The notes beneath the pieces are model-generated. The model was not told where the DNA came from and made no database searches. It saw only the letters and a program-made list of their open reading frames with translations. From Candidatus Bathyarchaeota archaeon (GTDB lineage: Archaea > Thermoproteota > Bathyarchaeia > Bathyarchaeales > Bathycorpusculaceae), in NCBI GenBank assembly GCA_026014545.1, contig JAOZIH010000013.1:1-34807 (forward strand): a stretch of DNA of 34,807 bases, written 5' to 3'. A program made the position numbers and the translations under genes. This document shows positions 4,683 through 28,839 of the stretch, piece after piece (position 1 is the stretch's first letter; each line of letters begins with the position of its first letter).

Positions 4683-4730
4683 AAGTTGTAGCTTTAGTAG
4701 CTAAACCAAGCCAAATAAAAAGGTGATGTG

Positions 4731-5807
4731 TTGAAAAGAGTTGTCGTTACTGGCGCCGGCGGACCTGCGGGAATAAATTTCATTATGTCGCTTCGCATTG
4801 CGCCGGAAAAAATCTTCATTTTAGGAACAGAAGCCAATGAATATTTCATTCACTTGTCACCCGCCGATAAGAAATATCTAGTTCCAAAGGCCAAAGACTC
4901 TGGATACATTGACAAGTTGAACGAGATCCTACGAAAAGAGAAAGCCGACTTCTTGCATGCTCAACCGGATGTTGAGGTGGAGGTTGTTTCGGAAAATCGT
5001 GAAAAACTAGAGGCAAACACGTTTTTGCCTTCGAAAGAAGCCGTCAAAACATGCCAAGACAAACTTAAATCCGCTGAGGTTTGGATGAAAAAGGATGTGC
5101 CAGTAGCAAAAACCTTAGAGATAAAGACAGAGCACGATATTGAGCGGGCGTTTGAAGAGCTTGGAAGCCCCTTGTGGATTAGAGCCCGTCATGGCGCCGG
5201 CGGCATAGGAAGCACCCCCGCGTACAATAAAGAAACAGCCCTTGCGTGGATAAAATATTGGAGAGCGCGAAACGCCGGCTGGGGTTTCATTGCACAGGAG
5301 ACTCTTCCGGGAAGAAATGTGGCTTTTCACAGTATTTGGAAAGACGGTGAGCTTGTGACGTCCATGGCAAGAGAACGCTTAGAATATATATACCCCCACC
5401 TCGCTCCCTCTGGCATAACGGGCACGCCTGCTGTTCAAAGAACCATACACGATGAAAAAGTGAACAAAATTGCGACAGAAGCTGTGCTTGCCATAGACCC
5501 AAGCTTTAATGGATTAGCGTGCGTGGACTTGAAAGAAAACAAGGCTGGGATTCCATGCGCTACTGAAATTAACGCTGCACGCATGTTCACAACTTCCTTC
5601 TTCTTCTCTTATGCCAGCAAAATTCTAAGAAAAGATCCATATGCAAACTTTCCCTATCTCTGCGTCAAACTCGCATGCAACGAGCACATACCAGAAATGC
5701 CCAAATATAATATACTGCCCGAAGGCGTTTACTGGATCCGGCATATAGATGCACCAGCCAAGCTTGTTAAAGACGGCTGCGTCCTCGGAGAAATGTATCA
5801 CTGGTGA
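4731..5807 (+). CDS. ATP-grasp carboxylate-amine ligase (CarB-like)
   Basis: ATP-dependent ligase of the carbamoyl-phosphate-synthase large-chain-like ATP-grasp group; such enzymes join a carboxylate to an amine through an acyl phosphate. A Rossmann-like N-terminal domain begins KRVVVTGAGGPAGINF. The ATP-grasp core follows, with a glycine-rich loop RARHGAGGIGS near 152-162, GTPAVQRTIHD, and the metal-binding segment ATEINAARMFTT near 278-289. The TTG at 4731 is preferred because AGGTGAT (4721-4727) lies three bases upstream; the GTG at 4728 would abut the SD. The substrate is unknown. The DUF354 gene follows after 4 bases, so the two probably act in one pathway, most likely on a surface glycan or a cofactor. 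The product has about 358 residues. Confidence 0.8.
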   Translation: MKRVVVTGAGGPAGINFIMSLRIAPEKIFILGTEANEYFIHLSPADKKYLVPKAKDSGYIDKLNEILRKEKADFLHAQPDVEVEVVSENREKLEANTFLPSKEAVKTCQDKLKSAEVWMKKDVPVAKTLEIKTEHDIERAFEELGSPLWIRARHGAGGIGSTPAYNKETALAWIKYWRARNAGWGFIAQETLPGRNVAFHSIWKDGELVTSMARERLEYIYPHLAPSGITGTPAVQRTIHDEKVNKIATEAVLAIDPSFNGLACVDLKENKAGIPCATEINAARMFTTSFFFSYASKILRKDPYANFPYLCVKLACNEHIPEMPKYNILPEGVYWIRHIDAPAKLVKDGCVLGEMYHW

Positions 5808-5811
5808 AACC

Positions 5812-6804
5812 ATGCAAATATGGTATGATGCTTGCACAGGCAAACACATGCGCTATGGCGCTGCAATAGCGAAAAAGCTTAGGGACCACGGGCACGAAGT
5901 AATATTGACCACGCGGCAACATCCCGACACATTGCAAGTCGCAAACTTTCTAAACGAAAAACCCATTGTCATAGGAAAATACGACCCAAAATCCTTAGCG
6001 TCTAGGCTTAAAGCGGGGCTTCGCCGCCAACTTTTATTCTGCAAATTTTTCGGTAAAAACCCGCCTGACATTGCTATTTCCCATGGCTCCGTTGACCAAA
6101 TAAGGGTGGCTTTCGGCTTAGGCATTCCAGTAATCACAACTATCGATACGGCATACGCTGAAGCAGTGAATAGGCTTACTCTTCCCCTTGCAAGCTTCAT
6201 AGTTGCCTCGAAGGCTATTCCCGAAGAAATTCTAAAAACCTACAGTGCAAAAGGCGAGATCATTAGTTTTAACGGCGTGGACGAAGTTGCCTGGATCAAG
6301 GATTTCAAGCCTTCAGTTAGCTACGCCTTCAAGAAACCGTTGATTGTTGTGCGGGAAGTTGAAGAAAAAGCCGCTTACACCGAGAAAAAATTCTCCCTAA
6401 TGCCTATAACAAAAAAGCTGGCCAATCTCGGAAATGTTGTTTATCTGTCAAGATACCGCCGAAAAACAATTAAAGGCTTGACTGTTCCGAGAGAGTTTGT
6501 TGATTCTGCAAGTTTAGCTGCGCAGGCAGATCTATTCGTCGGAGTCGGCGGAACAATCACACGCGAAGCAGCGCTGCAGGGAACACCTGCAATAATCGTT
6601 GACTTCTTTCAGAAGCAGCACGTAAATGATTATTTAATGGAAAGGGGTTTCCCAATTTTCAAGGCCGCGCCTACAGAAGCCTATAGATTAGCTGAAAAGC
6701 TAATAGGTAAAAAGTGGGATGTTAGCTGCAAACTCCGTGAGCTTGAAAATCCAGTAGATACAATTGAGCATGTAATCAGCCAGAAAATTAGAAAAAGTAC
6801 GTAA
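5812..6804 (+). CDS. DUF354 family glycosyltransferase-like protein
   Basis: Archaeal DUF354 protein, distantly related to GT-B enzymes such as MurG and UDP-GlcNAc 2-epimerase; the donor and acceptor are unknown. The start region MQIWYDACTGKHMRYG and the following GHEVILTTR match the family's MKIWxD...GHEVxxTxR pattern. The C-terminal nucleotide-sugar half has FVGVGGTITREAALQGTP at about 240-257, which resembles the GGxGTxxxEA loop of GT-B enzymes. No membrane segment is seen. The ATG at 5812 lies 4 bases after the ATP-grasp stop, giving a two-gene operon. The 330-residue length is normal for DUF354. Confidence 0.75.
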   Translation: MQIWYDACTGKHMRYGAAIAKKLRDHGHEVILTTRQHPDTLQVANFLNEKPIVIGKYDPKSLASRLKAGLRRQLLFCKFFGKNPPDIAISHGSVDQIRVAFGLGIPVITTIDTAYAEAVNRLTLPLASFIVASKAIPEEILKTYSAKGEIISFNGVDEVAWIKDFKPSVSYAFKKPLIVVREVEEKAAYTEKKFSLMPITKKLANLGNVVYLSRYRRKTIKGLTVPREFVDSASLAAQADLFVGVGGTITREAALQGTPAIIVDFFQKQHVNDYLMERGFPIFKAAPTEAYRLAEKLIGKKWDVSCKLRELENPVDTIEHVISQKIRKST

Positions 6805-7008: not shown

Positions 7009-7881
7009 ATGCGCAAGCAGAAGGTACTTGTAGTTGGATTAGGCGAAGTTGGCAGAGCGTTATATGAGCTACTTGAGGAAAGCGGGAAAGTTGATGTTTA
7101 TGGTTTTGATTTAAGCGAGGATAAAATGCGCGATGTCGCTGGTAAAGTCAAGTTGCCTAGCGCTTTTGATATTATGCATATTTGTTATCCATGCGTAGAT
7201 GTGGAAAATTTTGTTACCGCAACTTTGGATTATATGCGAAAATTTAATCCTCAACTGACAATTATTGATAGTACTGTGCCTCCTGGCACTACCCAGAGAA
7301 TCTGTAACCGCACAAAATCTCTGGTAGTTCATTCTCCAATAAGAGGCATGCATAAAAATTTGGAGACAATGAAAAGGGACATTATGTTTTGGAGCAAGTA
7401 TGTTGGTGGTGCAACGCGGGAGGCAGCAGAATTAGCGCGGAAACATTTTGAGCAGATAGGGCTGAAAGTAAAGGTCTTGAGCAGTCCAGTTGAAACTGAG
7501 CTGGCGAAACTGTTTGAAACAACTTATAGAGCTTGGATGATCGCTTGTTTTCAAGAAATGCACCGTATTTCAAGGCATTTTGGAGCTAATTTCGACGAGG
7601 TTGTGGACATGATCGAAGACATTCACCGAGTGCACTTTAATAAGCCCCTTCACTATCCAGGAGTTATAGGCGGGCATTGTTTAATCCCAAATACTAAACT
7701 GCTTTTGAAGGTTTGGGATTCTGAATTTCTACATCTGATTTTAAAATCTAATGATAAACGAAAGGAGGAAATAAAAGACAAAAACGTGTACGAGGAAGTG
7801 GAGCAAATTCGACGGAGAGCTGAAGTTCTTCAGAAAGATTTAATGAACCTCCTAGAAAACAGTCAAAGCCAACATACATGA
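7009..7881 (+). CDS. UDP-sugar dehydrogenase-like protein lacking the C-terminal domain
   Basis: Member of the UDP-glucose/GDP-mannose dehydrogenase superfamily, whose normal enzymes oxidise a sugar C6 alcohol to a uronate with NAD+. The NAD Rossmann motif GLGEVG is at 10-15 and IDSTVPPGTT at 86-95. The family lysine region ETELAKLFETTYR contains Lys167, and PGVIGGHCLIPN contains the catalytic-position Cys224. The usual aspartate after the cysteine loop (GGHCIPVDP in WecC-type enzymes) is replaced by Asn. The protein ends at 290 residues in a charged coiled tail, so the usual C-terminal UDP-binding domain of about 120 residues is missing. It stands alone between the ATP-grasp pair and the glycosyltransferase operon. 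It may have altered activity or bind a different substrate. Confidence 0.75.
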   Translation: MRKQKVLVVGLGEVGRALYELLEESGKVDVYGFDLSEDKMRDVAGKVKLPSAFDIMHICYPCVDVENFVTATLDYMRKFNPQLTIIDSTVPPGTTQRICNRTKSLVVHSPIRGMHKNLETMKRDIMFWSKYVGGATREAAELARKHFEQIGLKVKVLSSPVETELAKLFETTYRAWMIACFQEMHRISRHFGANFDEVVDMIEDIHRVHFNKPLHYPGVIGGHCLIPNTKLLLKVWDSEFLHLILKSNDKRKEEIKDKNVYEEVEQIRRRAEVLQKDLMNLLENSQSQHT

Positions 7882-8035
7882 ATTTTCGGCAACAACAATA
7901 TCTAATCGCTAAACTACCCCCCCTTCTGATATGAGGTCGAACAAAATTCTTTATCCCTTAATCTATGATACGCATTCTAGGCATGTGATGAAAAATATTT
8001 TCCTACCACTTGTTATGAACATATATAAAAATTAT

Positions 8036-8860
8036 TTAAGCATAAGCGCTTTTAGCTGCAGAAATGAACCCTTTAAGAAATGTTACCGTCCGTATTATTA
8101 TAAAAGGTATTAAAGGCGGATATCTATATCGTATTGCTAATCTAAATGCAAAAAATGGGCTGTAAAATAATGATTTTACTGCTTGATATAATGTCCTTGT
8201 TTTACTGATTGCTGCTCTTTTTCCGCCGTAATACCACTTTCGCTTTAAAGATTTTAAATCTACAGCAAATACATGCTTAGCTGTTAAAGGTAGCGTCACA
8301 ACCTTTAAATGAAGTCTTCTCACATCTCTGCTAAATAATGTGTCCTCATCAGAAAACGTATCGCTCCTGAACTTTACTTTATTAAAAACTTCTCTTTTAA
8401 CTAGCATGCATCCACAACTAAGCCACCATTTATTCGGTCTAGTTTCATTGTATTTCCAATACAGTTCTTCACATTTAGCCCAAACACTTTGAATGTAGCT
8501 TTCAACAAAACTTACACAAGCAATATCTGCTCCTTTCTTCAATGCGGCAATAAAAGCTTCTATCAAACGGTTTGAAATGATTATGTCTGAGTCTAATACG
8601 AGGATATATGGCTGCGTAGCTTTTGTGACCCCAAAGTTTCTGGCGTATCCAACACCGTGGTGCGCTATGGAATAGTAACGAATTTTCGGCGATTTGGCAA
8701 TGTTGACATCAAAAGGACTTCCATCGTCGATTAAGATTATTTCTTTTATTTGTGCGTGCTCTACTAATGGTTGCAGACACAATGGCAAACTAAATCTTAC
8801 GTGAGTGTGTAGTTTGGGGTTGGCGTAAAAAGGGACAACAGCACTTATCATAATTTTCAA
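8036..8860 (-). CDS. Family 2 glycosyltransferase (GT-A)
   Basis: Inverting GT2 enzyme that adds a sugar from a nucleotide-sugar donor on the cytoplasmic face. IILIDDGSP is at about 41-49, the DXD-type metal motif LDSD at 89-92, and the acceptor-side ED motif FSDEDTLF near 169-176. The C-terminal 60 residues are hydrophobic and basic (FYSPFFAFRLAIRY onwards) and may lie on the membrane. The start is TTG at 8860, overlapping the TGA of the upstream methyltransferase (TTGA); an ATG at 8851 would be three codons shorter. It is the last gene of a five-gene minus-strand operon, so it may add the last or a branching sugar. Confidence 0.85.
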   Translation of the reverse strand: MKIMISAVVPFYANPKLHTHVRFSLPLCLQPLVEHAQIKEIILIDDGSPFDVNIAKSPKIRYYSIAHHGVGYARNFGVTKATQPYILVLDSDIIISNRLIEAFIAALKKGADIACVSFVESYIQSVWAKCEELYWKYNETRPNKWWLSCGCMLVKREVFNKVKFRSDTFSDEDTLFSRDVRRLHLKVVTLPLTAKHVFAVDLKSLKRKWYYGGKRAAISKTRTLYQAVKSLFYSPFFAFRLAIRYRYPPLIPFIIIRTVTFLKGFISAAKSAYA

Positions 8861-9378
8861 CTCTTAATAGCAGTAACAATAACATTTTTTTCACTTATTG
8901 CTGAAGGCAAGAAGAGCCTTGCAATTTTATCCAAAATCTTATGTGGACTAAAAACTAAAGGCAACGTCGTATATTTGAAACAAATGTTGGAAAAACCAGT
9001 GTTCAGCAGAATATTCTGCAGTTCTGCCATGCTCCAACAAGCTATATGCCCTGTGTCGCTTAGAACTTGCGGCATCCCTCTTATTTGCCTGAGTATTATT
9101 CTCCAGTGAAAAATATTTGGAGTACTTAATTCCAGGATTCCTTTCCTCTTTAAAACTCTTTTTACTTCCTTTAAACATAAAAGGGGGCTTTCTACATGCT
9201 CTATTACTTCGTAAAAGCATATTTTATCAAATATTTCTGGTTTAAATGGAAGAAAATGGGCGTCCGCACGAATAAAATTTTTAGGCTTATTTTTTGGGCG
9301 TCTACATAAGTCTATGCAAACGTCACCTCTTGCAATGTCACATTCATCTGTACCGGAACCCACATCCAATATCAACAT
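8857..9378 (-). CDS. Small class I SAM-dependent methyltransferase
   Basis: S-adenosylmethionine methyltransferase of the Methyltransf_11 type. Motif I, LDVGSGT, is at 4-10, followed by acidic Asp23 at the end of strand 2, DAHFLPF at 39-45, FYEVIEHVESP at 55-65 and LSTPN at 84-88. The protein begins almost at motif I, with no N-terminal substrate domain. Its broken paralogue at 10547-11075 has the same compact start, so this is a family trait rather than truncation. It sits 6 bases after the upstream GT4 gene and overlaps the GT2 start. The context suggests methylation of a sugar or glycan end. Confidence 0.8.
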   Translation of the reverse strand: MLILDVGSGTDECDIARGDVCIDLCRRPKNKPKNFIRADAHFLPFKPEIFDKICFYEVIEHVESPLLCLKEVKRVLKRKGILELSTPNIFHWRIILRQIRGMPQVLSDTGHIACWSMAELQNILLNTGFSNICFKYTTLPLVFSPHKILDKIARLFLPSAISEKNVIVTAIKS

Positions 9379-9384
9379 TTATCC

Positions 9385-10566
9385 TTACCTATCCCTCAGT
9401 AAGGTATTATATATGTTGTAAACTTTTCTGGCGTGGGCTACGAATGAGTGATTTTCCAAAACGTATTCTCTAGCTTTATTCCCTATCTCAGTCATCAAAT
9501 TTTTATTTGTAAGGGTAAATTCAATAGTTTTCGCAATCATTTCTGAATCCTTTTCTTTGATTAGAATACCATTTTTCATGTGCTGAATAATTTCCCCCAT
9601 GCCACCAATGTTTGAGCATATTGTAACCTTGCCACAAGCCATTCCTTCCAACATTGCAAGTGAAGTGGCTTCTTGAATTCCATGAGAGGTTATTGAAGGT
9701 ATAAGAATAATATCCGCCATCAAGTAATAAGGTGTTATTTTGCTGTGAGGAATTATTCCAACCAACTGGATTCTATTATCTCCACGTTTTTCCTTAACTA
9801 TTTTTTCTCTCTCTGGCCCGTCTCCCGCAATGACCATTTTTACTTTTTCATTTTTTATATGTTTCATGGCTTGTACTGCATAAATTACACCGTTTTTTTC
9901 TACAAGTCTTCTAGGTACTAAGATGATGATGTCATCTTCTCCGAATCCAAATTTTTTTTTCAACCTCTTTTGTTTTTCTTCTGAAACTGGTTTGAATTGA
10001 TTTGTGTCGATGGCATTATGCATTACGCTGATCTTCTCGGCAGGGTAGTTAAATTCTGAAATGACATACTCCTTTATTCGCTGGTCAACGGCGATCACAT
10101 AATCTGCTTTTTCTATTCCTTCCTTCTCAAGCTGTAAAAGGTAAGGATATATCTGTTTACGCACTTTTTCATTTTTTATAAATTCTATGTTTTCCCTTGC
10201 AAAGTAACCGTGAAGAGTTAATACCTTTTTTTCAGGCCTTCCCACTGCACTTATTAATGACAAGACATCATGGGCATGAATCATTTCAAAAGCGTTTTTC
10301 GGAATATGCTTTCTTAAGTATTTTATCATCCAATTAAGTTTGAGCTTGTAACCATACTTTCCTCCTAAAAGAAGCCTCGTGCTTCGCTTGATTATTTCCC
10401 CTAAACTCTTTGGGTTGTAATAAACCGTAACGACTTTAACCCCTAATTCCTTTAATCCTTTTTCAAGTAACAATAGATGAACGTGCTTTCCCCCTAATTT
10501 TGTCATGTACGGATTATCTGTGGACATAATAAGTATGTGCAAAGTTTCATTCCTGCTTTTGAGCAA
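9385..10566 (-). CDS. Family 4 glycosyltransferase (GT-B)
   Basis: Retaining GT4 enzyme with two Rossmann domains. The N-terminal acceptor domain has a GGKHVHLLLLEKGL segment, and the C-terminal donor domain has VPRRLVEKNG, VIAGDGPEREKI and the E-x7-E motif in EATSLAMLEGMACGK. No transmembrane helix is visible. The longest start is TTG at 10566, which overlaps the end of the preceding methyltransferase. TTG at 10542 or ATG at 10527 would begin closer to the first conserved strand (LHILIMSTDN) and follow an AGGAATG SD-like stretch. It is the third gene of the operon and probably extends a surface glycan. Confidence 0.88.
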   Translation of the reverse strand: MLKSRNETLHILIMSTDNPYMTKLGGKHVHLLLLEKGLKELGVKVVTVYYNPKSLGEIIKRSTRLLLGGKYGYKLKLNWMIKYLRKHIPKNAFEMIHAHDVLSLISAVGRPEKKVLTLHGYFARENIEFIKNEKVRKQIYPYLLQLEKEGIEKADYVIAVDQRIKEYVISEFNYPAEKISVMHNAIDTNQFKPVSEEKQKRLKKKFGFGEDDIIILVPRRLVEKNGVIYAVQAMKHIKNEKVKMVIAGDGPEREKIVKEKRGDNRIQLVGIIPHSKITPYYLMADIILIPSITSHGIQEATSLAMLEGMACGKVTICSNIGGMGEIIQHMKNGILIKEKDSEMIAKTIEFTLTNKNLMTEIGNKAREYVLENHSFVAHARKVYNIYNTLLRDR

Positions 10567-11075
10567 TAATAATCATGTTTCGACCAGTTATTGGCGAAGG
10601 AAAAATTCTATGCATAAACTTGTCTAGAATAATATGCTTGCGGCTATCCGTCCTTTCAGTAGCAGGTAGAATTGTGTAATATATGAAAATATTCTTAAAA
10701 TTAACATTTTCAAGCAAAATTTCCATTTCTATATGTGTCCAAGTTGCGATGTGTTCCTTTCCACTAAGTTGCAATTTTCTACCTCTTGCTACACGGAGAG
10801 ATTCTCCAATGCAAAGGATTAGGTGTGGATATTTCGACTTTTCCACCATTTTTTAAAACACGATATATTTCTCGCAAGCATTTTGTAGGATTTTCCACAT
10901 GTTCTATTACGTCGTAAAAATATACTTTCTCAAAAATTTTATCTAAAAACGGCAAATAGTGTGCATCAGCCAAAACAAAATTCTCTGGTACTTTAAATGG
11001 TTTGCAAATGTCTATATTCACGTTTGCTCTCGATAAGTGGCTACTTAAATGACCACAACCCACATCAAGCATCAT
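10547..11075 (-). pseudogene. Frameshifted SAM methyltransferase, paralogue of 8857-9378
   Basis: The first part, from the ATG at 11075, reads MMLDVGCGH (motif I), ADAHYLPF, YFYDVIEHVENP and EISTPNPLHWRI, then runs into a stop at 10779. The second part continues in another frame as SLRVARGRKLQLSGKEHIATW to a TGA at 10547. Joining them aligns with the intact paralogue (HWRIILRQIRG against HWRI-SLRVARG) without any length difference if two bases are restored. The break falls in GAGAGA at 10796-10801, TCTCTC on the coding strand, so loss of one TC unit explains it. It could be a true pseudogene, a slippery-repeat switch or an assembly error. Confidence 0.8.
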
Positions 11076-11081
11076 TAGGCA

Positions 11082-12032
11082 TCACCGGAAAAGGTGGTCG
11101 TAGATTTTTAAAAGTTTTTTTATAACAACACTTACCTTGTGCTCTTTTAACAAATAAGCGTATTCTCTTTCCCACAACTCCCATAATCTAGTATCTGTTT
11201 CCATTATAATGTTAACAATATTCTCTTCTGTATTAACATTTTTTAAAGGAAAGTTACTATATTCCTGAAAAGTAGATGATACATATGAGATCACGGGCCT
11301 GCCACATGCTATTGCTTCTAATGAAACAACTCCTAACGAACCGAGTTTAAACCTATCAATGACAACATCCGCGTACCAATAGTACTGTTTTAGTTTTTCA
11401 TGGGAGACTCTTGGCAGTATATTTAAATGCAAACCGAGTGAAGAGGCTAGAGATAATGTTTTATTAAAATCGGTGCCATACTTAATGATGCTTACCTCCA
11501 CTTCATCTCTAATTTTGCTTAAAGCCCTTATTGCCACATCTGTACCTTTAACCTTCCAATTTGAATCGCTTGCAATAAGCACTTTTTTCTTTCCATCATG
11601 CTTAGCTACCGGTTTTGGATAGAAAAGTTCTGTGTCAACAGGGTTAGGTAAGTATTCCGCATCCTCCCTAAACTTTTTAGCTATACCCAAAATGTCTGGT
11701 GTGCTAACCAAAACCTTGTCACACTTTCTCAGATTATACCTAACAATTCTGCCCCACAAGGGATGGTTGAGGCTTGAGCGTAAATCGCTTCCATGTGCAT
11801 GACCAATTAACGGCTTTTTTCCAAGTTTAGCCGCAATGTAGCAGTCTTGAAGAAGATAGTGTACATGGTAAATGTCTGCCTTAATCCTCATGATATTATA
11901 GGCTAAACCTAAGGTTTTGCTCCATAAGTTGCGGCTTCTTTTAACATGTTTTCCCTTGACGCTTGCTGGCAGATACTTAAGTAAAGTCTCGCCTACATAA
12001 GCGCAATCATTAATCATAGCAATTTCAAACAT
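11082..12032 (-). CDS. Family 4-like glycosyltransferase (GT-B)
   Basis: GT4-type glycosyltransferase, first gene of the minus-strand glycan operon. From the ATG at 12032 the protein has about 316 residues. IYHVHYLLQDC and IGHAHGSDLRS mark the N-terminal domain and LPNPVDTELFYP the interdomain hinge. A donor-binding loop GSLGVVSLEAIACGRPVIS contains the conserved glutamate. The frame is open to a TTG at 12086, but the extra 18 residues are hydrophobic-aromatic and poorly matched, so 12032 is preferred. The frameshifted methyltransferase starts 6 bases downstream. The protein is more divergent from the GT4 at 9385-10566 than a recent duplicate would be. Confidence 0.82.
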   Translation of the reverse strand: MFEIAMINDCAYVGETLLKYLPASVKGKHVKRSRNLWSKTLGLAYNIMRIKADIYHVHYLLQDCYIAAKLGKKPLIGHAHGSDLRSSLNHPLWGRIVRYNLRKCDKVLVSTPDILGIAKKFREDAEYLPNPVDTELFYPKPVAKHDGKKKVLIASDSNWKVKGTDVAIRALSKIRDEVEVSIIKYGTDFNKTLSLASSLGLHLNILPRVSHEKLKQYYWYADVVIDRFKLGSLGVVSLEAIACGRPVISYVSSTFQEYSNFPLKNVNTEENIVNIIMETDTRLWELWEREYAYLLKEHKVSVVIKKLLKIYDHLFR

Positions 12033-12469
12033 TTTCCATTTCAACCATGATAGTTTAAAATAAACTCTGAAGTAGACATATATCAATATTACATTTAAGA
12101 CGAAAAAACCGTGAGATTTAGCATAGACTTAGTATACAGCTAGTTGGAAGCAGAATTAGATCCAATTATTTGACTAAGTCCTACCTAAACTGCTTTATAT
12201 GGCCCAAAGAAACATTTCTATTTCATAATTGTATGTTCATGAATGTATGGAAACAAAGAAATTTTTAATATAAATTTTTGTAAATAATAGATTTAAATGG
12301 TTACTTTTTTCATTTAAAATCAACAGCTCATCAAATGTAAAGAATGAATCTTTTATGGGCAAACTTCGACTATTCATCAAAACCTTTAAGAAAAGCATAA
12401 CTTGCACATATATTTAATATATTTTCATTACAATTCGTTTCGTAAAAATACATAAGATAAGGAGACAAA
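12033..12469. promoter_or_regulatory. Divergent AT-rich intergenic region
   Basis: These 437 bases separate the glycan operon (leftward) from the deacetylase/FemAB-like gene (rightward). Several TATA-like stretches are visible: CTTAAATGTAAT on the minus strand near 12092-12103 for the operon, TTTTTAATATAAATTTTT near 12262-12279, and ATATATTTAATATAT near 12408-12422 for the rightward gene. No convincing open reading frame, RNA gene or repeat was found. Confidence 0.5.
12408..12422 (+). promoter_or_regulatory. TATA box for the deacetylase/FemAB-like gene
   Basis: ATATATTTAATATAT lies about 55 bases before the TTG start at 12470. The SD AAGGAGA (12459-12465) falls inside the leader this would produce. 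Confidence 0.45.
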
Positions 12470-13951
12470 TTGCTAACTCTAAGAATCGATGTTGACTATC
12501 CTTACCCTTCGAGGCTTAGAAGCTTCATCTACACAGCCTTCGGCATCCGCTTCGGCAAAGACTACCTCAAAAACTCCAAGATACTCGCGAGGATGATTAA
12601 TGAATCGCCACGGCGTGTTAAAGCCTATTGGTTTTTTACTCCCAAAACAATTCCTGACATGGAACTGTTAAAGCTGCTTAACCCAGAGCGCCATGAGGTT
12701 GCGCTTCATATAGCAAACAATCCGTGTAAGGAGTTGCGGCTTCTTGAGGAAAGAACGGGGCGAAAGATACGCTATTACACGGTTCACGGCACCTCACGTT
12801 TTCTCGCCAGATTAATGTGGAAGCGATGGCGATACAAGTCGCCACCAATCCCCCAAGGCTTCCCACCACAATCATTTTATCAATTTACTTCATTCAGTCT
12901 AGACGTTATATGCCACATTTACCCTGCAGGCTACGCTGCGAAAATCGCTGAAAAAGCCGCTGCAAGCGGGCAAATTCTCCATATTCATCCAATCTGGCTT
13001 TTCCAAAGAGGAAAAATAAATCATAGAGGCCCATTCTATGAGGCGTTAAGGAGAATTTTGGCTGTGGATAATGAACTTGAGACGCTGGCTCTGCGGCGGA
13101 AAGCGTTCTTCACGATGGCGAGAGATAATGACGAGTACGAGCGGGACATTTTTCCCACGGACGCGTTTTTGGAAAAGCTAAAGCAGAGAGGCATCGACGT
13201 ATTCACGTTCATAGAGCGAAGCTGGTGTTCAAAATTGCCTAATCTGCCAAGCCGCTGGGTGCGTGAAGAAGATAATGTTGCGACTTTGCGGATTACAACG
13301 TTTGAGGATTGGTGGAAAGCCATAGATAAGAAGACTCGCAACATGGTTCGTAAGGCAGAAAAAAGCGGAATAGAAACGAGAGAAGCGGAGGTTAATGACA
13401 AGTTCGCTGAGGGCGTATGGAGGATTTATAATGAAACGCCTATACGGCAGGATCGAGGTTTTCCACATTATGGAATCTCTCTGAAAGCGGTTCAGCAGGG
13501 CGTATTTTCAGCTGTAAACTGTGTCTTTATAGGCGCGTATTTGCGGGATGAGTTAGTTGGGTTTGCGCAGCTGGTTCAAGGCGATAACATTGCCATTTTG
13601 TCTCAGTTGCTTTCGATGCAGAAGCACTTTGATAAAGCCGTGAACAACGCGTTAATCGCTAAGACCGTAGAAGTTTGTGTAAAAAAAGGGGTAGGGTGGC
13701 TTATGTATGGTCGAATTGAAACTGCGCATCCGTCGCTTGACCGCTTTAAGAAAAGTAACGGTTTCTTCAAGTTTCCGATAACAAGGTTTTATGTTCCTTT
13801 GACAAGAAAAGGTAGGCTTGCTGTTAAGCTGGGATTGCATAAGGATTTGAAGGATGCTCTTCCCAAATCCATACGGTACACGCTTTTGCCATTATACTGT
13901 TGGGCAAGCAGAGTAAAAGTGAGAATTAAATTAATGCTAAAAGAGAAGTAA
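12470..13951 (+). CDS. Fusion: polysaccharide-deacetylase-like domain plus FemAB/GNAT-like acyltransferase
   Basis: Two regions are visible. Residues 1-250 resemble a NodB-type carbohydrate esterase: DVDYP (Asp7, Asp9) at the first strand, EVALHIANN (His80), YYTVHGTS (His106) and LHIHPIW (His171, His173). Residues 255-493 resemble FemAB or GNAT acyltransferases, with KTRNMVRKAEKSGIETREA at 288-306, VFIGAYLRDELVGFAQLV as the central beta strands and RFKKSNGF near the end. FemAB proteins transfer amino acids to peptidoglycan precursors, whereas GNAT relatives acetylate sugars. The start TTG at 12470 follows a strong SD, AAGGAGA. One polypeptide could deacetylate an amino sugar and then re-acylate it. 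The substrate is inferred only from the glycan locus. Confidence 0.65.
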   Translation: MLTLRIDVDYPYPSRLRSFIYTAFGIRFGKDYLKNSKILARMINESPRRVKAYWFFTPKTIPDMELLKLLNPERHEVALHIANNPCKELRLLEERTGRKIRYYTVHGTSRFLARLMWKRWRYKSPPIPQGFPPQSFYQFTSFSLDVICHIYPAGYAAKIAEKAAASGQILHIHPIWLFQRGKINHRGPFYEALRRILAVDNELETLALRRKAFFTMARDNDEYERDIFPTDAFLEKLKQRGIDVFTFIERSWCSKLPNLPSRWVREEDNVATLRITTFEDWWKAIDKKTRNMVRKAEKSGIETREAEVNDKFAEGVWRIYNETPIRQDRGFPHYGISLKAVQQGVFSAVNCVFIGAYLRDELVGFAQLVQGDNIAILSQLLSMQKHFDKAVNNALIAKTVEVCVKKGVGWLMYGRIETAHPSLDRFKKSNGFFKFPITRFYVPLTRKGRLAVKLGLHKDLKDALPKSIRYTLLPLYCWASRVKVRIKLMLKEK

Positions 13952-13955
13952 ATGT

Positions 13956-14623
13956 ATGAGTGCGCTAGAAGAAACCTATTGGGAGCACGTTAACAGAGCA
14001 ACTAAGATGGGTGTTTACCTAACAAGCGTTGAAATGCAGTTTATCTTGGTTCCCAGAGTTTAAAAGCAGAGGGTCTGCTTGTTGACATTGGCGCTAATGC
14101 CGGACGCTTTTCTCTTCCTGCTGCCGAAATTATGCATGTGGTTGCTATGGACTTGGATTTATATGCGCTTAAGAGATTAAGGTTGAAAAATCAAGATGTT
14201 GATGTCATAGTGGCAGATGCAAGGTTTATTCCGCTGAAAAATGGTGTGGCCGATGATGTTATAATAATTGAATTATTAGATTATATTGAAAACTCAGCCG
14301 AGGCAATAGCTGAATGCGCCCGTGTTCTCAAAGTTGGCGGCGTAATTTTCCTTTCGTTTGGAAACAAATCCAGTTTGAAAGGGACACTTAAAAGTTTTCT
14401 TGGAAAAACATATTCTTTTTCTTATGGAGAAATTTTGTGTGTTATGAAGGCTTAAAAGTTTAGGATTGTGAGAAAAATGGGTTTCAATTGGTTGCCCTTT
14501 GGACGTAATTCCAATAATCCTACAATTTCTTTGTTTGCTGCGGTGGAAAGAATTTTTGGGTTAAGGAAGCTTGTGCGTTTTAGTCCTTGGGTGATAATTC
14601 AAGCAATTAAGGTTGCTGAATGA
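13956..14623 (+). pseudogene. Decayed SAM methyltransferase (frameshift plus stop)
   Basis: Translation from the ATG at 13956 gives MSALEETYWEHVNRATKMGV and onward, then stops at 14061. In the next frame the protein continues GSQSLKAEGLLVDIGANAGR (motif I) and VIVADARFIPLKNG, up to a TAA at 14453. That same frame then continues FRIVRKMGFNWLPFG to a TGA at 14621. One base lost from the GG at 14048-14049 and one nonsense change at 14453-14455 restore a single protein of about 222 residues. Two independent lesions make a real pseudogene more likely than a sequencing error. It follows the fusion gene after 4 bases and was presumably its operon partner. ATG 14132 could still give a partial, probably inactive, product. 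Confidence 0.8.
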
Positions 14624-14754: not shown

Positions 14755-15786
14755 TTACTTTTCTTGGGTTTTGGCAACAATGAGTGGGAAGTAATCATAG
14801 AATTCGGTTTCATTTTCTTTGTAAATCAGGTAGGGTGTGTCGCCTATGCCGTCGCCGTCCGCGTCTGTGCCATTGTAATCGCTCCAGTAATTGCCCTCTC
14901 TACCATTATCCCACACGTTTGGCAAATCTCCTGATACGTGGCCCGATGGCATGTTATCTATGAAGCTGTTATGGTAAAGGACGTTATTAGTGGATTGGTA
15001 GAGGAAGATGCCCATGTTGTTGTTTTTTATGTAATTCTTTGTTATGGTGGTTTTGTTTGCGTATCGCATGTAGATGGTGTAGTTGGCGTGGCGCGTAAAT
15101 GTGTTCTCAGAAATGATGTTTTCTATGGATTCTTTCAGCCAGATGGCATACATCTTGTTCTTTGTCAGATTGTTTTCGTAGATTATGTTGCCGTTTGAGG
15201 ATGCTTCAATCCAGATGCCGCAGTGATTGTTTGTTAACGTGTTTTTGTAAATCGTGTTGTTTGACGCGGCGCTTAGGTAGATGCCGAAATCAAAATTTTG
15301 GATTTTAATGTTCGTTACTGTCACGTTCTTTCTTCCAGTTAGATCTATGCCTCTAGAGAGATATTCTTCTGTGCCATTGAGTGTGTATCCGTTTCCGTCG
15401 ATTATAATGCTGTCTCTTCCGACTATCATTGGGTTGGAGATGTCCGCGGTGAAAGTGTAACGGTTGTTGCCGTCATATAAAATTGGGGCGTTAGATGGGT
15501 TAATGGTTCCGTCGGGCATGATAATGATGTAGCCGCTTACAGGCGTTATCGGTGTCGTGTCATCAGTAGAAGCGGGCGGAGTTGTAAGCTGCCATAATCC
15601 ATAAACTCCTAGAATTACAATGAGCGCAAGAACTGCCAGAAGTATTTTACCTTTAGGCACTTTCCGCGGCTTTCTCTTGGCTTCTCGTTCCATCTGGATT
15701 TTGAAGGCTTCTTCAGCGCGTTGCTGCCTTTTCTGCCTCTCGCGCTGTATTTCTCGCCAGCTTTTCTTTTTTTCTTTTTCAGGCAT
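14755..15786 (-). CDS. Membrane-anchored NosD-like beta-helix protein
   Basis: Surface protein of 343 residues with three parts. Residues 1-45 are extremely basic and charged (cytoplasmic), 47-66 form one transmembrane helix (KILLAVLALIVILGVYGLW), and the rest is outside. The outer part carries right-handed beta-helix (PbH1) repeats of the NNTIYKNTLTNN type from about 145 to 290. It ends with GNYWSDYNGTDADGDGIGD, a motif common at the end of NosD-like domains, plus many N-glycosylation sequons. Such domains bind or process carbohydrates; no catalytic residues can be named. The ATG at 15786 is used, with only a weak SD. It shares an N-terminal beta-helix entry module with the protein at 27892-28839. 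Confidence 0.8.
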   Translation of the reverse strand: MPEKEKKKSWREIQRERQKRQQRAEEAFKIQMEREAKRKPRKVPKGKILLAVLALIVILGVYGLWQLTTPPASTDDTTPITPVSGYIIIMPDGTINPSNAPILYDGNNRYTFTADISNPMIVGRDSIIIDGNGYTLNGTEEYLSRGIDLTGRKNVTVTNIKIQNFDFGIYLSAASNNTIYKNTLTNNHCGIWIEASSNGNIIYENNLTKNKMYAIWLKESIENIISENTFTRHANYTIYMRYANKTTITKNYIKNNNMGIFLYQSTNNVLYHNSFIDNMPSGHVSGDLPNVWDNGREGNYWSDYNGTDADGDGIGDTPYLIYKENETEFYDYFPLIVAKTQEK

Positions 15787-27891: not shown

Positions 27892-28839
27892 TTAGTTGTT
27901 TGGCAAGTTTTTCGCTTTACTCTTGTTTTTTAAGTAAGCGAGCGCTCCTATAGCAAAGGCCACCACCGCAATGATGACTGAAGCAACAAGCAAAAATAGC
28001 GTGATAGAAAACTGCTGAGGTGACGTTATTGTGGGTAAGGTTAATGCGAAATTTGGAATTGATACTGGGTTTACCAGCGGATGATTGTCTTGGAATACTC
28101 GATTCTCAAAGCCAGTAGAATCTGCGATGGAATGAGGTGTATCCCACACTCCTGAAGAATCAACTTCAGAGGCGTTCGGATACCTCTGTAAATAATCTCT
28201 CCAATAGTTTCTTTCAAATGTTTCGATTCCGCTAATAGCCAAATGTGCACCAAAAATGATGTTGTTCTCGACTACAAAATTGTTGCTGACAGCAAAGTGC
28301 ATGTAGATTGCAGGTGAACCTCCGATAGTGCAGTGAGTGATGTTGTTGCCTGTGCTGCCCCAGAGCGCTATGCCGAGGCTTTCCCATGTGAAACCGCCTG
28401 TTCCGTTGTGGCTTATAAAATCGTTTGAGATGTAATTGCCATAAAAGGTGTGGTTTCCTCCGAATTCACATTTTATCCCTATGTGGAAATTTGTTATCCT
28501 CAAGTTCCTTACCGTTACGTTCCACACGTCAAGCTCAGAAGGGTGTCTGGTTGCTTCGCTTGCTATTTCTATTCCTGTTCCATTATCGGCGTTAAGTGTG
28601 AGACCTGCACCGTCAATTATGATGTTGCCTTTTCGGACTTTAATGTTGCCCGAAACATTGCCAGTGAAAACGTAAACATCGCCGGTACGCTGAATTTTGT
28701 CCGTGCCCTCGATGCTTCCGTCGGCCCTGATAATTATGGTTGTATAATCCTGAGCAGTAGCAAAATTAGCTAATCGAAAACTAAGCATGGTAGATGCAAA
28801 CAAAACTGCCAACGCAAGTATTAACGCTGCTTGCCTCAT
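27892..28839 (-). CDS. Secreted, C-terminally anchored beta-helix protein
   Basis: Surface protein of 315 residues. A signal peptide occupies 1-29 (LILALAVLFASTMLSF, cleavage near ATAQD). The beta-helix domain (about 35-215) has parallel-strand repeats such as NNITHCTIGG and NNFVVENNIIFG. A tail ends in one transmembrane helix at about 280-304 followed by KNKSKAKN. The entry module TTIIIRADGSI...IIIDGAGLTLN parallels that of the 14755-15786 protein, whose anchor is at the other end. Several N-glycosylation sequons are present. A catalytic role cannot be assigned; related NosD-like domains bind carbohydrates. Two inverted repeats lie 50-85 bases upstream of its start. Confidence 0.78.
   Translation of the reverse strand: MRQAALILALAVLFASTMLSFRLANFATAQDYTTIIIRADGSIEGTDKIQRTGDVYVFTGNVSGNIKVRKGNIIIDGAGLTLNADNGTGIEIASEATRHPSELDVWNVTVRNLRITNFHIGIKCEFGGNHTFYGNYISNDFISHNGTGGFTWESLGIALWGSTGNNITHCTIGGSPAIYMHFAVSNNFVVENNIIFGAHLAISGIETFERNYWRDYLQRYPNASEVDSSGVWDTPHSIADSTGFENRVFQDNHPLVNPVSIPNFALTLPTITSPQQFSITLFLLVASVIIAVVAFAIGALAYLKNKSKAKNLPNN

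Follow-up and report, generated by a model that had tools for sequence, protein, structure and literature searches.

The fused gene and its conservation

The window (the whole stretch of DNA that was analysed, 34,807 nucleotides) is a contig of a 1.86-Mb archaeal MAG. Its forward strand carries a gene for a two-domain protein preceded by a ribosome-binding-like site.

12459..12464, + strand: AAGGAG ribosome-binding-like site, 5 nt upstream of the TTG (sequence inspection)
12470..13951, + strand: coding sequence of the fused protein, 493 aa, TTG start, stop codon at 13949-13951 (list of open reading frames and 46 full-length orthologues)

A class-wide search matched the fused gene in 62 of 251 genomes, 47 of them (the window's genome included) over essentially the full length; therefore, 12470-13951 is not a chance open reading frame. 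The 46 full-length orthologues besides the window are 51-67% identical to it. The sequence-only reading of this DNA had described two domains fused in one archaeal protein. The 47 full-length genomes bear this out, and a search for homologues with the same domain order places every one of them in the window's own family-level group (f1) of Bathyarchaeia. Named relatives carry the label Candidatus Bathyarchaeota and include Ca. Bathycorpusculum soli, whose genus is placed in class Bathyarchaeia (NCBI). That many full-length orthologues in a single family-level group rule out an assembly error as the source of the fusion. The two halves are also similarly conserved, with a mean pairwise identity of 56% for the N-terminal and 60% for the C-terminal half (33 aligned sequences). 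This similarity and the confinement of the full-length matches to f1 indicate that the fusion is an old, maintained architecture within one family. In a tree of the C-terminal domain the fused forms group together, except that a very long branch (L064), whose position the program flags as unreliable, falls inside them; a single fusion event is likely on this tree.

A search of a plasmid collection for the fused gene gave no match. A genome-wide pattern scan, in which the coverage of distant bacteria was not exhaustive, returned archaeal loci only, all from close relatives. An open-access literature search gave no paper describing the pairing of a deacetylase-like and a FemAB domain in one protein. 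Two relatives (L065 and L131) have copies in two frames near the domain boundary. These were considered as natural splits but look equally likely to be frameshifts, and so were given no weight. A 3.2-kb contig labelled as an Asgard group archaeon (L043, JAHPYV010000256.1) has a frame-disrupted copy that is 57% identical to the window gene and is possibly misbinned.

Gene neighbourhood and cellular setting

Next to the fused gene, the window has GT2, GT4 and methyltransferase genes; genes for ATP-grasp, DUF354 and UDP-sugar dehydrogenase proteins lie further out and recur near the fused gene in relatives.

4728..5807, + strand: ATP-grasp with PylC-like N-terminus (cluster c8; Pfam of the counterpart in L046)
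5749..6804, + strand: DUF354, GT-B-like (cluster c4; Pfam of the counterpart in L046)
7009..7881, + strand: UDP-sugar dehydrogenase-like (cluster c5; Pfam of the counterpart in L046)
8036..8860, - strand: GT2 glycosyltransferase (Pfam)
9385..10566, - strand: GT4 glycosyltransferase (Pfam)
11082..12086, - strand: GT4 glycosyltransferase, divergent from the fused gene (Pfam)

Within 8 kb of 16 fused loci, GT4 genes were found at 10, DUF354 at 8, UDP-sugar dehydrogenase and GT2 at 7 each, and a flippase-like gene at 6; L048 and L053 have none of the listed glycan gene classes in this range. The flippase-like gene, with 8-12 predicted spans and no Pfam match, lies directly 3' of the fused gene on the same strand in five of the 16 loci. 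The window's genome has a homologue on another contig. A glycan setting had been proposed earlier and is supported by these glycosyltransferase, sugar-nucleotide and flippase-like neighbours. The fused protein has no predicted membrane span, hydrophobic signal stretch or signal peptide which, together with the glycan gene neighbourhood, points to a cytoplasmic step before export, with a glycan precursor as the presumed substrate.

Several other genes were observed around these loci. A methyltransferase related to 8857-9378 is split into two short overlapping same-strand ORFs of 98 and 100 aa at 10547-11075 (-), as if frameshifted. Just 3' of the fused gene is a short methyltransferase-domain ORF (14132-14455, +, 107 aa) with a start that looks truncated. 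The window also encodes two paralogous proteins that cluster together (14755-15786 and 27892-28839, -). The 14755-15786 protein looks like a surface protein of parallel beta-helix repeats that has a membrane span at its N-terminus. In many relatives (L051, L052, L054-L059, L065), genes for a class-V aminotransferase and a NifU-like protein are found repeatedly a few kb from the fused gene.

The C-terminal half

13070..13948, + strand: C-terminal domain, residues 201-493, FemAB-type double-GNAT transferase by predicted fold and motifs (TIGR03019 in 33 of 33, Foldseek, hhalign)
13643..13648, + strand: N392-N393, FemAB-type 'PN[ND]' helix start (invariant in 33 of 33; aligns with FemAB 'PNN/PND')
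13745..13750, + strand: F426-K427, [FY]K motif (invariant in 33 of 33; aligns with archaeal FemAB [FY]K)

Judged by predicted fold and motifs, the C-terminal half is securely placed as a FemAB-type double-GNAT transferase. TIGR03019 matches this half in all 33 members, although the window protein scores 34.9 bits, far below the curated equivalog cut-off of 260.35. It is just below the Pfam cut-off for PF02388 (FemAB; 21.1 bits vs 24) and, in a single-sequence search, just under that for Acetyltransf_6. The AF2 model of the full protein (pLDDT 87, pTM 0.77) has Sbb17/Sba18, FemX and MprF as its top PDB folds in Foldseek, with a probability of 1.00 (Sbb17 E 4.6e-11, FemX E 3.6e-9). Sbb17 and Sba18 are aminoacyl-tRNA-dependent synthases whose structures were solved with the amino-sugar acceptor streptothrisamine. 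Comparison of the C-terminal half with an archaeal FemAB set in hhalign gives 99.3% (E 4e-20, 223 columns). The suggestion that this half resembles an aminoacyl or acetyl transferase is therefore confirmed as FemAB/GNAT by profile and by fold.

A390-V-N392-N393 occupies the place of the Gly-rich pyrophosphate loop of acetyl-CoA GNATs (compared with RimI and 3d8p). The catalytic lysine of the [FY]K motif is Lys305 in FemXWv and Lys329 in DhpH-C (PMC12945691), and K427 corresponds to these residues by alignment. As aligned, N392-N393 and F426-K427 favour the FemAB type over acetyl-CoA GNATs.

The N-terminal half

12470..13069, + strand: N-terminal domain, residues 1-200, predicted alpha/beta barrel, remote NodB/PF01522 relative (AF2, hhalign, separate-gene homologues)
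12488..12496, + strand: D7-V8-D9, motif-1 Asp pair, end of strand 1 (invariant in 33 of 33 and in all remote homologues)
12707..12709, + strand: H80, first motif-2 His, predicted metal ligand, C-terminal end of strand 3 (invariant including remote homologues; profile register)
12719..12721, + strand: residue 84, place of the second canonical metal His, N in the window (column count and register)
12785..12790, + strand: H106-G107, end of strand 4, replaces the Arg-x-Pro motif 3 (invariant in 33 of 33; one remote homologue lacks the His)
12902..12904, + strand: D145, end of strand 5 (invariant in 33 of 33)
12986..12991, + strand: H173-P174, motif-5-like His, predicted catalytic acid, end of strand 6 (invariant including remote homologues)

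The N-terminal domain alone is predicted by AF2 as a confident alpha/beta barrel (pLDDT 93.6, pTM 0.90). Foldseek gives weak matches for this half, none at E <= 0.001 and none to a carbohydrate esterase; the best is GH57 (1k1w, E = 0.02), followed by generic TIM barrels. GH57 is a fold superfamily mate of NodB. Direct sequence searches of Pfam, NCBIfam and the PDB gave no usable match, and a profile of this half searched against the PDB by sequence found no deacetylase. None of the 33 members passes the PF01522 Pfam cut-off; one matches at E 0.045 and the window protein has no match.

The kinship appears through intermediate sequences. A profile built from the fused N-terminal halves alone finds separate-gene relatives in G122 (1e-9) and G196 (8e-5), and with these added it finds L208 (3e-4) and L209 (1e-3). 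PF01522 is in turn touched by L208 at E 0.021 and by the L061 gene at E 0.0019. The combined profile (A8) compared in hhalign with a TIGR03006-like deacetylase set gives 94.9% (P 4e-8), against P 0.6 for an unrelated control profile. When the more distant intermediates are left out the match is weak (12%, P 0.0025), and comparison with a mixed PF01522 set is uninformative (8.6%); the link needed both a coherent TIGR03006-like set and the added intermediates. These profile comparisons show the N-terminal half to be a remote but demonstrable relative of NodB/PF01522-type deacetylases. The sequence-only reading of this half as NodB-like is upheld through this indirect route, but not by the direct searches.

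A deacetylase-like family with no Pfam coverage above the cut-offs was observed in L208 (5624-6358), L209 (6579-7292), L061 (8706-9476), L125 (5685-6230) and L060 (7943-8491). Its members have D-V-D, a single motif-2 His and H-P, with His-Gly replacing motif 3 in all but L061.

D7, D9, H75, H80, H106 and H173 are invariant in the 33 fused sequences. Across fused and remote homologues R5, D7, V8, D9, P62, H80, G107, H173 and P174 are constant; at H106 a single remote homologue differs, with Cys. In the AF2 model of the domain, D7, D9, H80, H106, D145 and H173 are all located at C-terminal strand ends. Motif 1 is D-x-D (D7/D9) and not D-D. The profile register aligns 'RHEVALHIANN' on 'GHEIASHGYAH', and therefore H80 corresponds to the first metal His of motif 2 and residue 84 to the place of the second. 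The canonical H-[ST]-x-x-H with its two metal histidines is thus retained in H80 but not at position 84, which is not conserved (D in 15 of the 33 sequences, N in 8, K in 4, H in 3, and others including F and R). H106-G107-T108 is found in place of the Arg-x-Pro of motif 3. The motif-5 His is present as the invariant H173-P174, with 'YxHPWE' as its counterpart in the TIGR03006-like set. Since the second motif-2 His is absent and His-Gly stands at motif 3, the N-terminal half is not a standard CE4 enzyme.

H106 is a candidate substitute metal ligand because the invariant H106-Gly sits where canonical enzymes have Arg-x-Pro. H75 was considered as a ligand and rejected: it is at the start of strand 3 (the wrong end), is lost in stand-alone relatives and corresponds to the non-ligand His of 'GHEIGNH'. 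The earlier claim that Asp and His positions like those of NodB are kept is right in outline, as D7, D9, H80 and H173 are present, with two corrections: H75 is a non-ligand His and residue 84 is not conserved. It was too generous on the metal site: structure prediction places D7, D9, H80, H106 and H173 at the C-terminal strand ends, but the canonical triad is incomplete.

Separate-gene counterparts in relatives

Homologues of the two halves are encoded as neighbouring genes in relatives of the fused group. In L060 (G196) a C-terminal-half homologue of 272 aa is followed 11 nt later by an N-terminal-half homologue of 182 aa. In L061 (G226) a PF01522-like gene starts 123 nt after a C-terminal-half homologue of 280 aa. 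L203 (G081), from another family of the same order, has a deacetylase with PF01522 and DUF3473, a GNAT and a TIGR03019-like FemAB in one same-strand run (7069-13995, -) that also includes a second PF01522 deacetylase and a second FemAB. This gene run corresponds to the fusion with its parts in separate genes. G090 has a FemAB homologue as a gene of its own, on the same strand as a gene for a 499-aa PF01522 protein two genes away. The motif set of the N-terminal half is also present in separate-gene forms.

As separate proteins, deacetylases and FemAB/GNAT transferases are known from shared glycan pathways. Their natural fusion here, together with the adjacency of the two corresponding genes in sister lineages, is evidence that the halves act in sequence.

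Proposed function and alternatives

The fused protein may be a cytoplasmic two-domain enzyme of surface-glycan synthesis, an amino-sugar N-deacylase and N-(amino)acyltransferase on one chain, to which we give a probability of roughly 0.55. On a glycan intermediate linked to a nucleotide or lipid, the barrel domain would hydrolyse the N-acyl group, most likely N-acetyl, of an amino sugar. A new acyl group would then be moved onto the freed amine by the FemAB-type domain, and an amino acid from aminoacyl-tRNA seems a more likely donor than acetyl from CoA. Both steps would precede outward flipping of the glycan. In this proposal both halves are taken to be catalytic and to work on a single amine; which step comes first, which sugar is the substrate and what serves as donor are likewise inferred. 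A tentative, more specific form of this proposal is that the polypeptide deacetylates a surface-glycan amino sugar and joins to it an amino acid delivered by aminoacyl-tRNA; D9, H80 and H106 would form a rebuilt metal site that stands in for the standard Asp-His-His triad. The earlier interpretation agrees in part with these results: its domain pairing and glycan setting are supported, also by the split neighbouring genes of sister lineages, but a complete canonical metal site is not seen, as one of the two motif-2 His residues is missing.

The same two-step enzyme could instead have an acyl-CoA-dependent N-acyltransferase as its C-terminal domain, so that acetyl is swapped for another acyl group and not for an amino acid. 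Pfam Acetyltransf_1 matches 28 of the 33 members (best E 1.5e-6), PDB sequence matches are to acetyltransferases only (e.g., 3d8p, E 0.002), and in Caulobacter the GNAT protein HfsK, of the deacetylase/acyltransferase pathway, is described as an N-acyltransferase (PMC5362036). However, the replacement of the Gly-rich pyrophosphate loop, the invariant FemAB-type NN and FK motifs, and the best folds, which are aminoacyl-tRNA-dependent enzymes, make an acyl-CoA donor rather unlikely.

It is unlikely that the N-terminal domain is hydrolytically dead and serves the FemAB-type transferase only by binding or positioning the glycan. The missing second motif-2 His, the changed motif 3 and the weak fold matches would fit such a role; however, D7, D9, H80, H106 and H173 do not vary in any of the 33 sequences, and the same motif set is found in the separate-gene forms. 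Unless D7, D9, H80 and H173 have a catalytic or metal role, it is difficult to see why remote homologues at ~20% identity should keep them.

The N-terminal domain may also remove a group other than acetyl, or act on a different molecule from the C-terminal domain. The NodB superfamily includes deformylases and other amidohydrolases, of which ArnD removes formyl from a formylated amino sugar, and the motifs of the N-terminal half deviate from CE4 deacetylases. Nothing in the neighbourhood points to a sugar formyltransferase, however, and the closest profile relatives found are TIGR03006/PF01522 deacetylase-like, so this alternative is improbable. An assembly or annotation artefact, for which the two-frame copies of L065 and L131 might speak, is refuted by the orthologues, as the same open frame is found in 47 independent MAGs at 51-100% identity (the window's own copy counted).

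If the two-step enzyme uses an aminoacyl-tRNA donor, an uncultured archaeal group would aminoacylate a surface glycan in a tRNA-dependent way. The fusion offers one soluble protein for testing sequential action and, with a metal His missing, could serve to examine how the NodB fold can rebuild its active site.

Comparison with known systems

Rhizobial NodB and NodA carry out a cytoplasmic deacetylation of the terminal GlcNAc followed by N-acylation of the same amine in Nod factor synthesis. These are separate bacterial proteins, and NodA belongs to a different acyltransferase family. In the Caulobacter holdfast, HfsH (a PF01522-type deacetylase) and HfsK (described as a GNAT N-acyltransferase) are proposed to form one polysaccharide-modifying pathway (PMC5362036, PMC8449245). 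They differ from the fused protein in being encoded by two separate genes, with hfsK outside the hfs locus, and HfsH has all five CE4 motifs. By its motifs 2 and 3 and its place below the PF01522 cut-off, the fused protein falls outside CE4 proper.

In NDST1 a single polypeptide combines a deacetylase barrel of the (beta/alpha)7 type with a transferase acting on the GlcNAc amine thus freed (PMC10864358). By analogy, this is the arrangement proposed here, with a barrel deacetylase and a transferase for the freed amine on one chain. NDST1 differs in using sulfate from PAPS, in being Golgi-bound and in having a complete Asp-His-His triad. Its sulfotransferase domain is unrelated to the FemAB/GNAT C-terminal half and is absent from the fused protein.

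The nearest named families of the N- and C-terminal halves are the PEP-CTERM/XrtA families TIGR03006 (deacetylase) and TIGR03019 (FemAB), respectively. TIGR03006-like and TIGR03019-like genes lie near each other in G081, whereas in the window protein they are fused and the motifs of the N-terminal half have diverged. FemX, Sbb17, Sba18 and DhpH-C share with the fused protein the double-GNAT fold, the catalytic lysine motif [FY]K and the NN helix start (PMC12945691). In comparison with these enzymes, the fused protein has a short first GNAT subdomain and a fused barrel domain; it is below the curated cut-offs of PF02388 and TIGR03019, yet has the FemAB fold and motifs.
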